From Alteromonas sp. CI.11.F.A3 (lineage in GTDB: Bacteria; Pseudomonadota; Gammaproteobacteria; Enterobacterales; Alteromonadaceae): a DNA stretch of 64,000 nt. The notes under the pieces were generated by a model. It had not been told where the DNA came from. It searched no databases and worked only from the letters and a program-made list of their open reading frames with translations. The position numbers and the translations under genes are program-made. Shown here in pieces: positions 52,967 to 56,533 of the stretch (position 1 is its first letter; each line of letters opens with the position of its first letter). The stretch covers positions 3,038,001 through 3,102,000 of the forward strand of contig NZ_CP136708.1 in NCBI RefSeq assembly GCF_032925565.1, in the 5' to 3' direction.

Positions 52967-53015
52967 ATCAGCGAAAAATGCGTAAGTACATTTGGTATAA
53001 TATCCACCAATTCAG

Positions 53016-53051
53016 TGCACCTTAGCACTTCATTTGCACCATTGTGGTTTG
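53016..53051. promoter_or_regulatory. Two NtrC-like enhancer sites
   Basis: Against TGCACCA-N3-TGGTGCA: 53035-53051 is TGCACCA-TTG-TGGTTTG (11 of 14), and 53016-53032 has the left half TGCACCT. They lie about 110-150 bp before the predicted transcription start, as usual for sigma-54 enhancers. Confidence 0.55.
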
Positions 53052-53135
53052 ATTCTGATCATTCCAGCAATACATTAGCTTAAGTGAATAACAATAAAGC
53101 ACTGATTTAAAACAATTTAAAATAAAATCGCTTTT

Positions 53136-53152
53136 TTGGCACTATTCTCGCT
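53136..53152 (+). promoter_or_regulatory. Sigma-54 (RpoN) promoter
   Basis: TTGGCACTATTCTCGCT has the invariant GG (53138-53139) and GC (53150-53151) separated by exactly ten bases, and matches YTGGCACGRNNNTTGCW except at two or three positions. The transcript should start near 53163. Confidence 0.75.
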
Positions 53153-53215
53153 AACCATTAATCAGTACGAGTCGGTTTGTAAGCTGACTAACACAATCTA
53201 TCGAATTGGATAAAG

Positions 53216-53266
53216 ACGTCCACAACCTTCTTTGGAAACAGGGAATGGTGTGGACGTTTTTTTTTG
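53216..53266 (+). terminator. Leader terminator before the FNT transporter gene
   Basis: ACGTCCACA (53216-53224) pairs with TGTGGACGT (53249-53257), can extend by ACC/GGT with a bulge, and is followed by a run of nine T. It would end the sigma-54 transcript after about 100 nt, giving either an attenuated leader or a small RNA. Confidence 0.85.
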
Positions 53267-53341
53267 TTCGTTTGTTCTATCGATGAAAGCAGTGATGTGG
53301 CTCGTTAATTTAAAATAATTTACAAATCAGGGTGATTAATT

Positions 53342-54190
53342 ATGGCTTATTTACTTCCCGCCGAGTTTGCCACGAAAATGGTAGATGCCGGTGAATCTAA
53401 AATCTACATGTCTACTCGCGACACACTTATACGCGCCTACATGGCAGGTGCAATATTAGCGCTAGCTGCCGTATTCGCTATTACTATTGCAGTGCAAACA
53501 GGCATCTTCCTACTGGGAGCGGTATTGTTCCCCGTCGGTTTTTGTATGTTGTACTTAATGGGGTTTGATTTGCTAACCGGTGTATTTGTACTCACGCCTC
53601 TTGCGTACTTAGCGAAACGACCCGGTGTTACTCCTAAACAAATTTTACGTAACTGGGGTTTAGTCTTTTTAGGCAACTTTGGCGGGGCATTGACGGTTGC
53701 CTTTATGATGTCTTTTATTTTTACCATGGGCTACAACGTCGATGGTGGCGCTATCGCTGCTAAAGTAGCCAGCATTGGTGAAGCAAGAACATTAGGCTAT
53801 GCAGAGCATGGCACCGCAGGTTGGTTTACTATCTTTATTCGCGGCATGCTTTGTAACTGGATGGTATCACTAGGTGTAGTTGGCGCTATGATATCTACAC
53901 ATGTAAGCGGAAAAGTGCTGGCCATGTGGATGCCTATCATGCTGTTCTTCTTCATGGGCTTCGAGCATTCTGTGGTAAACATGTTCTTATTTCCATTCGG
54001 TCTTATCATGGGCGGTGAATTTTCCATCATGGATTATTTCGTTTGGAACGAAATTCCAACAGCCCTTGGTAACCTTGTTGGCGGTTTAGCGTTTACTGGT
54101 TTAACGATTTACAGCACCCACGTTAAAACTGCACCTAAGCGTAAAATTCCTGTTGCTGAAAAAGCACCAGCGAAAGTCGCTGCCGTATAA
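53342..54190 (+). CDS. Formate/nitrite transporter family protein
   Basis: 282 residues with six membrane helices of the FocA/NirC family: LIRAYMAGAILALAAVFAI, NWGLVFLGNFGGAL, RGMLCNWMVSLGVVGA and GFEHSVVNMFLFPFGL. It forms a pentameric anion channel. Its place with cyanase and under a sigma-54/NtrC-like promoter suggests transport of nitrite or cyanate rather than formate; this is inference. AGGG lies eight bases before the ATG. Confidence 0.93.
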   Translation: MAYLLPAEFATKMVDAGESKIYMSTRDTLIRAYMAGAILALAAVFAITIAVQTGIFLLGAVLFPVGFCMLYLMGFDLLTGVFVLTPLAYLAKRPGVTPKQILRNWGLVFLGNFGGALTVAFMMSFIFTMGYNVDGGAIAAKVASIGEARTLGYAEHGTAGWFTIFIRGMLCNWMVSLGVVGAMISTHVSGKVLAMWMPIMLFFFMGFEHSVVNMFLFPFGLIMGGEFSIMDYFVWNEIPTALGNLVGGLAFTGLTIYSTHVKTAPKRKIPVAEKAPAKVAAV

Positions 54191-54196
54191 TTTATC

Positions 54197-54232
54197 AAGC
54201 CCGATACGCTTCCACTGTATCGGGCTTTTTTC
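54197..54232 (+). terminator. Terminator touching the start of the kinase/phosphatase gene
   Basis: An 11-bp stem (AAGCCCGATAC with GTATCGGGCTT), 9-base loop and a T run ending two bases before the ATG at 54235. Confidence 0.9.
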
Positions 54233-54234
54233 TT

Positions 54235-56043
54235 ATGCAGATACAATCTTTATCACTTCACTATAGCGAATGCAGCAGCGCTGGCGTTAAGCCTATAAAC
54301 CAAGACGCGTGCGATGCTTTTATCCCCGCTAATACTAGCCCAGCTTTGACATTAAAAGGGGCTGCCTTTGCGCTTGCCGATGGCATAAGCAGCAGTACGG
54401 TTAGCCAAATTGCCAGTGATTTGGCAATTAAAGACTTTATTAAACAATACTTTTGTACCCCTGAAACGTGGGGGGTAGCGCAAAGTGCTAAAACCGTTAT
54501 ACAAAGTATCAATGCCACTTTATATACCAAAACCCAGCAAAGCCCTTTTTGCTATACCCCTGATAAGGGTTACGTATGCACTTTTTCTGCGGTTATTGTT
54601 AAAGGCGATACGGCGCATATCTTCCATGTGGGTGATGCCAGAGTGTGTTTGTATTCCGATGGAAAGCTACAAGTACTTACCCAATCTCATCGGGTAAACC
54701 ACTCAAAACATGAATCTTACCTCGCTAACGCACTGGGCGTGCATGCTAATGTGGACATCGATTACCTTACGGTACCGTTAAAAGCAGGCGATACCCTTAC
54801 TCTAATGACAGATGGCGTGTATGAGTATGTCTCTTCCCTCACACTTGCTTCACTGATATCGACGGTGCACGCACCTGAGAATGACGCTTCTGTTCGTAAC
54901 AGCTCTTTTCAAAACAGTTCTAGTGTAAAAAAGAGTGACACACCTCTCGCGCAACGCCTGGTAGATTTGGCGCTAGAAAACGACAGCAATGATAATGTTT
55001 CCTGCCAGTGTATAACGGTAGCGAGCGTGGGCGATGGCAAATTTGTAACACCGGAATATGCGGTTGATGAAACGTCACTTCCTATTATTAAGCAGTTAAA
55101 TGTAGGAGAGACAGTAGATGGCTATCGTATTGAACGACAACTATACCAATCGGCTAGAAGCCATGTTTTCTTGGCGTGGGATGAAAATACCAAAACCCAT
55201 GTCGTTATTAAAATACCCTCTACTGAACTGGCACAAAACGGCGAATACCTAGAACACTTTGCGTTAGAAGAATGGCTAGCACGGCGGATTAAATCTAACC
55301 ATGTGATTAATGTACCTGCCCGTACTCAGCCGCCTTCATGCATGTATACCATTAGCGAATATATTGAAGGGCAAAACTTAACCCAGTGGCTAACAGACAA
55401 CCCTAAGCCAGATGTAGAAAAAGTGAGAAGTATTATTGAGCAGGTAGCTCAAGGCTTAATGGCTATGCATCGGGAGGGGCTGCTTCATCAAGATATTCGC
55501 CCTGAAAATATCATGATTGAAGCATCTGGTAACTGTAAAATAATAGATTTAGGCTCGGCTCGTGTTGCGGGCATTAGTGACGCACTGTTTGAACATGAGA
55601 GTGATATTATGGGCACTGCAGCTTATGTTGCTCCAGAATATTTTTTGGGTGACAGTGGCTGTGATCAATCCGACCTTTATTCCCTTGCGGTACTTACCTA
55701 TTACTTACTCAGCAACCGTTTTCCTTATGGAACACAGGTAGCCAAAACCCGCACCGTGGCGGCGCAGCATAAACTTAAATACCAATCGGTACTTGATGAT
55801 AGACGACCTATTCCAGCTTGGATAGATGACACGTTAAAACGGGCGTTACAGCCTAACCCTGAAAAGCGTTTTACCAGCTTATCTGAATTTACCTATCATC
55901 TTCGCCACCCTAGTCCAGCTTTTCTCAATCGCGTAACTGCGCCATTAATACAACGTCATCCACTGAAATTTTGGCAGGGACTTTCTCTGCTATTAGTGAT
56001 TAGTAATGTAGTGACATTCTTACTGCTTTATGGCAATCATTAA
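54235..56043 (+). CDS. Fused PP2C phosphatase and Ser/Thr kinase with C-terminal anchor
   Basis: 602 residues. Residues 1-265 form a PP2C domain (metal motifs ALADGISSS, HVGDARVCLY, LMTDGVYEYV, NDNVSCQ). Residues about 290-565 form a protein kinase: VVIKIP (ATP lysine), LLHQDIRPEN (catalytic Asp420), IDLGSAR (Asp438, DLG for DFG) and YVAPEYF. One membrane helix at the end (GLSLLLVISNVVTFLLLYG). It may add and remove phosphate on a neighbour product. The ATG follows a terminator T run directly, with no ribosome site. Confidence 0.93.
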   Translation: MQIQSLSLHYSECSSAGVKPINQDACDAFIPANTSPALTLKGAAFALADGISSSTVSQIASDLAIKDFIKQYFCTPETWGVAQSAKTVIQSINATLYTKTQQSPFCYTPDKGYVCTFSAVIVKGDTAHIFHVGDARVCLYSDGKLQVLTQSHRVNHSKHESYLANALGVHANVDIDYLTVPLKAGDTLTLMTDGVYEYVSSLTLASLISTVHAPENDASVRNSSFQNSSSVKKSDTPLAQRLVDLALENDSNDNVSCQCITVASVGDGKFVTPEYAVDETSLPIIKQLNVGETVDGYRIERQLYQSARSHVFLAWDENTKTHVVIKIPSTELAQNGEYLEHFALEEWLARRIKSNHVINVPARTQPPSCMYTISEYIEGQNLTQWLTDNPKPDVEKVRSIIEQVAQGLMAMHREGLLHQDIRPENIMIEASGNCKIIDLGSARVAGISDALFEHESDIMGTAAYVAPEYFLGDSGCDQSDLYSLAVLTYYLLSNRFPYGTQVAKTRTVAAQHKLKYQSVLDDRRPIPAWIDDTLKRALQPNPEKRFTSLSEFTYHLRHPSPAFLNRVTAPLIQRHPLKFWQGLSLLLVISNVVTFLLLYGNH

Positions 56044-56083
56044 CTCATATCAATAACCCGTATCACTCGAAAAAGGAAATGCA

Positions 56084-56533
56084 ATGATTACCAATCGAAC
56101 TCAAGTTACCGACATGATCCAGTCTTCAAAAATTTCTAAAGGAATTAAATGGAGTGAAATTGCCCAAGCTGTCGGACAATCTAAAGAATGGAGTACCGCA
56201 GCTTGCTTAGGCCAAATGGCTATGACTAAAGCTCAGGCAACGGCCGTAGGTGAAATGCTTGAACTGAGTGATGAAGCTATTGCGTGGTTGCAGATTGCGC
56301 CCTATAAAGGCTCGTTGCCAACCGAAGTACCTACCGATCCGCTTATCTATCGCTGGTACGAATTAGTTAGTGTTTATGGCACTACCTTAAAAGAACTTAT
56401 TCATGAGGAATTTGGTGACGGAATTATGAGTGCTATCGATTTCTCGATGGATTTACAACGTGAGAACGATCCAAAGGGTGACCGTGTAAGCGTGGTGATG
56501 TCTGGAAAGTTCCTACCTTACAAGATGTATTAA
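56084..56533 (+). CDS. cynS: Cyanate hydratase (cyanase)
   Basis: 149 residues. The C-terminal active-site region is well conserved (IYRWYELVSVYGTTLKELIH, then GDGIMSAIDF) with catalytic Arg90, Glu93 and Ser116. It converts cyanate and bicarbonate to ammonia and CO2. The N-terminal half is more divergent but keeps the helical fold pattern. AAAAGGAAATGCA lies before the ATG. With the upstream transporter and sigma-54 promoter it suggests nitrogen scavenging. Confidence 0.94.
   Translation: MITNRTQVTDMIQSSKISKGIKWSEIAQAVGQSKEWSTAACLGQMAMTKAQATAVGEMLELSDEAIAWLQIAPYKGSLPTEVPTDPLIYRWYELVSVYGTTLKELIHEEFGDGIMSAIDFSMDLQRENDPKGDRVSVVMSGKFLPYKMY

Follow-up and report, generated by a model that had tools for sequence, protein, structure and literature searches.

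Organization of the FNT-kinase-cynS locus

A cluster of three genes, encoding a predicted anion channel, a fused phosphatase-kinase and a cyanase, is located on the forward strand of the genome of Alteromonas sp. CI.11.F.A3, in the 64,000 nucleotide (nt) stretch analysed here (hereafter the window; positions 3,038,001-3,102,000 of the 4.66 Mb single-contig genome), and is preceded by a promoter region and a terminated leader. The first gene (53342..54190, + strand) codes for a 282 amino acid channel of the FNT (formate/nitrite transporter) family, the second (54235..56043, + strand) for a PP2C phosphatase fused to a Ser/Thr kinase (PF13672/PF00069) with a C-terminal tail that is hydrophobic by eye, and the third (56084..56533, + strand) for a 149 amino acid cyanase (CynS; PF21291/PF02560) which scores above the cut-off for TIGR00673/PRK02866. 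The order of these genes, the sigma-54-type and NtrC-like sites upstream of them and the terminated leader of approximately 103 nt had been described in the initial annotation, and this anatomy is confirmed by the sequence, the open reading frames, the Pfam matches and RNA folding.

The sigma-54-type promoter TTGGCACTATTCTCGCTA (53136..53153, + strand) recurs upstream of the leader in relatives. The usual spacing from its -12 GC (53150-53151) predicts a transcription start near 53163, from which approximately 103 nt extend to the end of the T-run at 53265. Three overlapping or adjacent matches to the sequence TGCACY-N5-RGTGCA are found further upstream, all within 49 nt (53003..53051, + strand), with one (53003-53019), two (53016-53032) and three (53035-53051) mismatches; the first is one of two NtrC-like sites with a single mismatch in the window. 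Both this sequence, which we take to be the NtrC consensus, and our presumed sigma-54 consensus were scored with weights of our own. The sigma-54-type site taken alone is not significant (6 matches with at most one mismatch in 64 kb; 6.6 expected), and NtrC-like sites with up to three mismatches show no excess over chance in the window (79; 75.9 expected). Both kinds of site gain credibility from a comparison of the FNT, nirB and stand-alone cynS leaders described below, in which they are largely conserved. The best sigma-54-like score has a shuffle p ≤ 0.05 in 21/25, 14/27 and 3/3 of these leaders, while the corresponding counts for the best NtrC-like score are 20/25, 20/27 and 0/3. RpoN and NtrC are both encoded in the genome, and no sigma-70-like site was listed on the + strand between 53152 and 53341. 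We infer from these sequence features that the FNT promoter may be NtrC-dependent.

A terminated leader with an ANTAR-type hexaloop

The predicted folding energy of the 115 nt from 53155 is -40 kcal/mol, with a z-score of -5.35 relative to 200 shuffled sequences. Folding and alignment identify an intrinsic terminator (53213..53265, + strand) whose 5′ arm overlaps a preceding hairpin, P2 (53208..53221, + strand), such that the two folds are mutually exclusive. P2 was recognized by pattern and alignment and has the form GGAT[AAAGAC]GTCC, a hexaloop with A at loop position 1 (A1) and G at position 4 (G4), as in the RNA targets of ANTAR-domain proteins. A simple scan for hairpins with an unbroken stem and a loop of 3-8 nt did not list the terminator, presumably because its stem is bulged.

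The 400 nt upstream of the FNT gene of the window were compared with those of 26 loci from relatives that the kinase search had turned up (27 regions). The pattern GAY-AAWGRC-GUC, preceding and overlapping a terminator, is present in 25/27 regions, 24 of which carry the fuller form GGAY[AAWGRC]GUCC. As the search pattern (12 positions) fixes A1 and G4, their invariance among the 25 leaders follows from the way these were chosen, while the match rate of 25/27 does not. The other invariant alignment columns of the 25 leaders belong to the P2 stem and the terminator core. The pattern is absent from the FNT upstream regions of L040 and L042, which derive from other genera and from genomes without an ANTAR protein of NasR length. 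A 28th region, upstream of the FNT gene of the same-genus genome G005 (71% identical), has the hexaloop AAAGGC, borne by another stem and followed by a T-run.

This leader anatomy is established by comparison of the related sequences. In the alignment, 92.4% of cells are paired in the terminator, as opposed to 31-53% in slid control structures, and double changes occur in 14 cells compared to 4.2 in shuffles; the excess for P2 is smaller (6 double-change cells; 2.3 in shuffles). Alignment column 20 pairs with column 5 in P2 and with column 50 in the terminator, giving a partial three-way covariation. Among 22 distinct rows, the seven with G pair in both folds and the seven with C in neither, while the eight with A pair in both (4), in the terminator only (2), in P2 only (1) or in neither (1); as these rows are related, their changes should not be counted as independent. 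A covariance model of P2 and the terminator, built from the FNT leaders and searched by means of Infernal with stricter filters, gave strong matches (E < 2e-6) once in each of 25 genomes, including that of the window, and always at FNT. These matches are the training sequences themselves, and the informative part is the absence of any other strong match.

Association with NasR and a proposed wider regulon

The genome harboring the window contains a single ANTAR-domain match. The protein consists of a NIT and an ANTAR domain, and matches Klebsiella oxytoca NasR (4akk) across both. Its gene is located ~1.0 Mb from the window, divergent from SulP-nirB-nirD. In eleven relatives nasR adjoins the FNT-kinase genes in divergent orientation, and in three of these (L037, L038 and L041) the order is nasR | FNT-kinase-cynS-SulP-nirB-nirD. 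This adjacency and the joint nas gene order suggest that the trio in the window is a piece of a nas cluster which stands apart. Of the 35 same-genus relatives (G001-G035), 24 have FNT as well as NasR, nine have neither and two have just one of them. In L334 (5451-9922; genome G299, from the same class and another family), FNT-kinase-cynS is followed by a convergent nasR, which indicates that the trio is not confined to the genus of the window.

A SulP-family permease with a STAS domain is located between cynS or nasR and nirB in L032 (4798-6363, - strand), L037, L038 and L041; nitrate or bicarbonate is its possible substrate.

Leaders of the same kind are not restricted to FNT. Among 33 nirB upstream regions which passed an identity filter of > 40%, 27 carry GGC[AAHGRM]GCC before a T-run, comprising all 26 NasR genomes and G040, which encodes a short ANTAR protein. 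The six nirB regions without a hexaloop leader are those of G036, G054, G055, G043 (two) and G045, the last of which also encodes a short ANTAR protein. In the same-genus genomes G002, G016 and G023, FNT-kinase is followed by nirB and cynS stands alone elsewhere. All three stand-alone cynS genes have their own sigma-54-like site, a hexaloop AAAGAC or AAAGGC and, 45-54 nt ahead of the start codon, a T-run, with hexaloop stems that differ from those of the FNT leaders; the covariance model, for which FNT leaders were the sole training set, also recognized the G016 leader (E = 0.013). As stand-alone cynS genes carry the same kind of leader, the cyanase appears to belong to the NasR regulon rather than to have been included through an accident of operon structure, and its membership of this regulon is, on sequence comparison, apparently new. 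The cynS gene of G059, a genome without an ANTAR match, has no such leader and is the sole usable control, the upstream region of G051 being masked.

A scan of the first 44 listed named loci found the leader at 13/24 nirB, 11/23 narK and 0/1 cynS genes. The FNT leader scan left out the second FNT of G043 and the FNT of G054, both directly 3′ of nirD, and the kinase-less FNT of G057 (L107) has no such leader upstream.

Activation under nitrogen starvation, combined with a second decision at the terminator, had been proposed from the window alone and is well supported by the leader comparison. The second input is most likely antitermination by NasR, a NIT-ANTAR protein, in response to nitrate or nitrite.

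Pairing of the kinase with oxyanion transporters

In an alignment of eleven proteins, the phosphatase and kinase domains both keep their catalytic-motif residues without change. At least 80 named kinase loci were found by kinase patterns; the first 44 of these included 40 with a long match, which together with 39 loci of relatives make up the 79 loci considered here. Among these listed loci, the gene directly upstream of the kinase on the same strand encodes an FNT channel in 39 (26 relatives and 13 named loci) and a NarK-type transporter in 29, or 68/79 in total. The other eleven have no upstream open reading frame of at least 150 amino acids (7) or another gene (4). A tree of 78 kinases was built by a quick method which flagged long branches outside the FNT group; the window was added, L245 and L249 were dropped as short, L244 was labelled NarK by hand and eight remained unlabelled. 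In this tree of listed loci, the 40 FNT-linked kinases, including that of the window, form one group (Shimodaira-Hasegawa-like approximate likelihood ratio test support: 100), and the transporter-type label changes once, compared to 23.1 times in shuffles. G023, G043 and a Cellvibrio metagenome-assembled genome encode both transporter types, with one kinase in each tree group, and the NarK-type kinases of the same-genus genomes G005 and G023 group with that of Alteromonas confluentis. The split of the tree by transporter type is the strongest available hint, drawn from sequence, that the kinase serves the transporter.

We therefore considered a transporter-kinase functional module, in which the probably membrane-anchored PP2C/kinase would phosphorylate and dephosphorylate either the oxyanion transporter with which it is paired or a gating protein, and so adjust uptake, whatever the family of the transporter. 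Such a module would refine, and not exclude, the NasR-dependent control described above, and we rate its probability as close to, if a little short of, even. The placement of the kinase behind FNT or NarK, the tree split with one kinase per group in genomes having both, and the invariant catalytic residues speak for it. However, inheritance of the genes as a unit would give the same tree, and relatives within the same genus or order account for 26 of the 39 FNT cases. In the same-genus loci compared, the FNT proteins are furthermore 85-98% identical to that of the window, whereas the kinases share only ~35-54% identity outside the two closest relatives; with a tightly co-evolving interface, FNT would not be expected to be so much better conserved than its kinase. 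The FNT tails were considered as phosphorylation sites and rejected, as alignment of kinase-linked and kinase-less FNTs revealed no Ser/Thr difference convicting a site. The suggestion that phosphorylation may control anion uptake is indirectly supported by the genomic pairing and the tree split. A literature search found no characterization of a PP2C/kinase beside nitrate/nitrite transporter genes, and its position after an oxyanion transporter gene is, judging from the loci compared, apparently new.

In the two short sequences L245 and L249, from Acidobacteriota/Holophagaceae contigs, a PP2C/kinase-like gene follows an apparent amino acid permease, as judged by its first residues only. This arrangement hints at a wider pairing of transporters and kinases.

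Predicted substrates of the channel

The FNT protein matches PF01226 (e-value: 1.5e-63) over positions 1-239 of 240, and falls below the NCBIfam cut-offs for the fnt, FocA, FocB and NirC models. Its nearest solved structure by sequence is LCIA (9v2a; e-value: 1.3e-26), followed by formate channels (7e-19) and NirC (2.5e-9). The location of the gene in nas clusters argues for nitrite as the probable substrate, with cyanate or bicarbonate as possible additional ones. Bicarbonate is a co-substrate of cyanase. For Pseudomonas, nitrate/nitrite transporters have been suggested to take up cyanate (PMC6627978), and such uptake would explain the presence of a cyanase in the operon.

Proposed mechanism and alternative explanations

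We propose that the trio represents a detached arm of the nas regulon, to which we assign a probability of roughly 85%. Under nitrogen limitation, phosphorylated NtrC would activate the sigma-54 promoter, and RNA polymerase would produce the leader of ~103 nt, by default ending at the terminator. Where nitrate or nitrite is present, NasR, through its NIT sensor and ANTAR RNA-binding domain, would bind the hexaloop of P2 and block pairing of the 5′ arm of the terminator, allowing read-through into the FNT, PP2C/kinase and cynS genes. The channel would then admit nitrite, and possibly cyanate or bicarbonate, the kinase-phosphatase may tune the transporter, and the cyanase would convert cyanate to ammonium and CO2.

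Several observations weigh against this proposal. When pairs rather than cells are counted, the terminator shows no clear covariation excess (pairs with a double change: 3, compared to 2.3 in shuffles; pair types: 7, compared to 7.3). Outside the genus, few FNT genes carry the leader, which was listed at 1/14 FNT genes in the scan of the first 44 listed named loci. G008 has NasR without FNT, and G005 has FNT and the leader without an ANTAR match, in a draft of 590 contigs. A canonical P1 hexaloop, the first of the pair which defines dual-hairpin ANTAR targets, was not found in the window leader, either with stems of at least 4 or by eye. Finally, the NasR of the window's genome has H at the position of R340, an arginine reported for K. 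oxytoca NasR as near-universal and essential for binding (PMC7496416). The missing P1 and the H at this position mean that binding must differ in detail from the characterized case.

The last two points, together with the distance of 1 Mb to nasR, favor an alternative in which NasR plays no part at this leader and the terminator responds to a different input, be it cyanate, some metabolite or a different RNA-binding protein. We consider this improbable: P2 with A1 and G4 tracks the presence of NasR, the same kind of element precedes nirB in 26/26 NasR genomes, and a riboswitch or other known RNA family was rejected, as no Rfam family reaches its gathering threshold in the leader (best permissive match: Ysr197, 23.5 bits against 167). 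Marginally less probable still is a terminator that is not subject to regulated read-through, and whose role would be to hold down basal transcription or to give rise to a small RNA. Its strength alone would suffice for this (the z-score of -5.35), but GGAY and loop columns 10-13 show little or no variation across the 25 leaders (A1 and G4 being fixed by the pattern), a conservation beyond the needs of a terminator core, and the A's of these loop columns could at most pair with the U-tract.

Single-hexaloop leaders and the R340 position of NasR

The place of P1 in the window leader is taken by a hairpin, AGTCGGTT-TGTA-AGCTGACT (53170..53189, + strand), whose loop is not of the ANTAR A1/G4 type. 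A detector for P1 (stem of at least 4 with at least two G-C pairs, within 80 nt upstream of P2) found a canonical P1 in 5/55 leaders (25 FNT, 27 nirB and 3 cynS; 0.98 expected), four of the five being close relatives. The same detector found P1 in 19/20 narK and nirB leaders (0.8 expected) of eleven mostly Pseudomonas loci, which had been picked for an already listed ANTAR-type leader and include near copies. The region upstream of P2 folds slightly better than shuffles (mean z: -0.6 for FNT, -1.5 for nirB and -2.0 for cynS), and no loop shared across the FNT, nirB and cynS leaders was seen there by eye.

In L047, L048, L071 and L072 the FNT leader is long and a canonical hexaloop precedes P2 by ~60 nt, and in the related L044 the upstream hexaloop has lost its G4. 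By eye, the P2-like loop of L334 and L234 starts with G.

The R340 position was assigned from the 4akk alignment and the R340/K345/K347 spacing. It is occupied by H (6) or Q (20) in all 26 same-genus NasR loci, and the K345 position by R, a change reported to be wild-type-like. Ten NasR proteins from elsewhere have R at the R340 position in nine cases and Q in Bordetella hinzii, two further proteins being unreadable there and uncounted. The loss of R340 and a single hexaloop coincide in B. hinzii (L251), and L332, L333 and L307 combine R with dual-hexaloop leaders; L338 is also dual by eye. A strict link was, however, rejected, as R is retained in G112 (L339), two leaders of which have a single hexaloop, and L047, L048, L071 and L072 show a canonical P1 although their NasR has Q. 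L335, L336 and L337 keep R, and no clear leader of this type was recognized near their nas genes. The link between loss of R340 and the single hexaloop is thus suggestive, not strict.

ANTAR targets have been described as two hexaloop hairpins with A1 and G4 in each (PMC3369931), and K. oxytoca NasR is reported to bind P2 alone with an affinity of ~12 µM, as compared to ~1 µM for P1P2 (PMC7496416). The structure of EutV has led to redefinition of the minimal binding motif as one hexaloop, although antitermination in that system needed both (PMC8934654). It is possible, with a likelihood somewhat below even, that the same-genus NasR performs true single-hexaloop antitermination without R340, by which nitrate or nitrite would induce the cyanase and the channel-kinase module, and cyanate would be handled within the nitrite import programme. 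The one-hexaloop form of the RNA switch is probably new. Whether a single hexaloop suffices for ANTAR antitermination, a question that the EutV structural work did not settle (PMC8934654), could be addressed naturally with these leaders, as could the way in which an ANTAR domain works without its conserved arginine.

Comparison with known systems

The nasF operon of K. oxytoca is under Ntr control and encodes an ABC transporter. As proposed for the locus described here, the nasFEDCBA genes are preceded by a terminated nitrate-assimilation leader, on which NasR acts as nitrate/nitrite-responsive NIT-ANTAR antiterminator (PMC3369931, PMC7496416). The window and its relatives differ from this system: an FNT channel takes the place of the ABC transporter, a PP2C/kinase and a cyanase are added, the operon is divided between separate parts of the genome, the leader has a single canonical hexaloop where nasF has two, and NasR carries H or Q at R340. 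The proposed combination of Ntr and NasR control follows the nasF plan and is not new in kind, while the PP2C/kinase and cyanase are apparently new members.

In the Pseudomonas nasT-narK-PP2C/kinase-nirB-nasA cluster, a PP2C/kinase gene of this kind likewise comes after that of a transporter, and there are ANTAR leaders with the loop AAAGRC upstream of both the transporter and nirB. It differs from the window in encoding NasT rather than NasR and NarK rather than FNT, in the dual hexaloops noted above and in that no cyanase was seen in the loci examined. An A1/G4 hexaloop overlapping a terminator arm is also found in the Enterococcus EutV/eutP system (PMC3369931, PMC8934654), which differs in its need for both hexaloops and in its response to ethanolamine through two-component activation. 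The cynFABDS genes of Pseudomonas pseudoalcaligenes resemble the window in that they include a cyanase, have an RpoN site and are controlled by ammonium; CynF is also reported to affect nitrate reductase (PMC6627978). They differ in the cyanate-responsive CynF and in an ABC transporter, and the accessible part of that report mentions no ANTAR leader.

A literature search, which covered few subscription journals and preprints, found no earlier link between ANTAR and cyanate, Alteromonas and NasR, a kinase and nitrate transport, or cyanase and nitrate assimilation. The proposed control would link cyanate use to nitrate sensing in Alteromonas; such heterotrophs compete with phytoplankton for nitrate (PMC8749424). 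It also draws attention to a kinase-phosphatase beside nitrate/nitrite transporter genes of two unrelated families.

Additional features of the gene cluster

The 44 nt gap between the FNT and kinase genes contains a hairpin (54197-54227) followed by a T-run, together forming a terminator-like element (54197..54233, + strand) listed by the terminator scan, in which the number of sites found does not exceed expectation (9; 10.1 expected). Hairpins are visible by eye in the folded gaps of many relatives, as viewed without a shuffle test, and the two genes overlap in seven same-genus loci. The hairpin in the gap may serve to keep the output of kinase and cyanase below that of the channel. The trio of G013 has a cyanase gene (L043, 5823-6534) that reads as two pieces, while FNT and the kinase are single frames.

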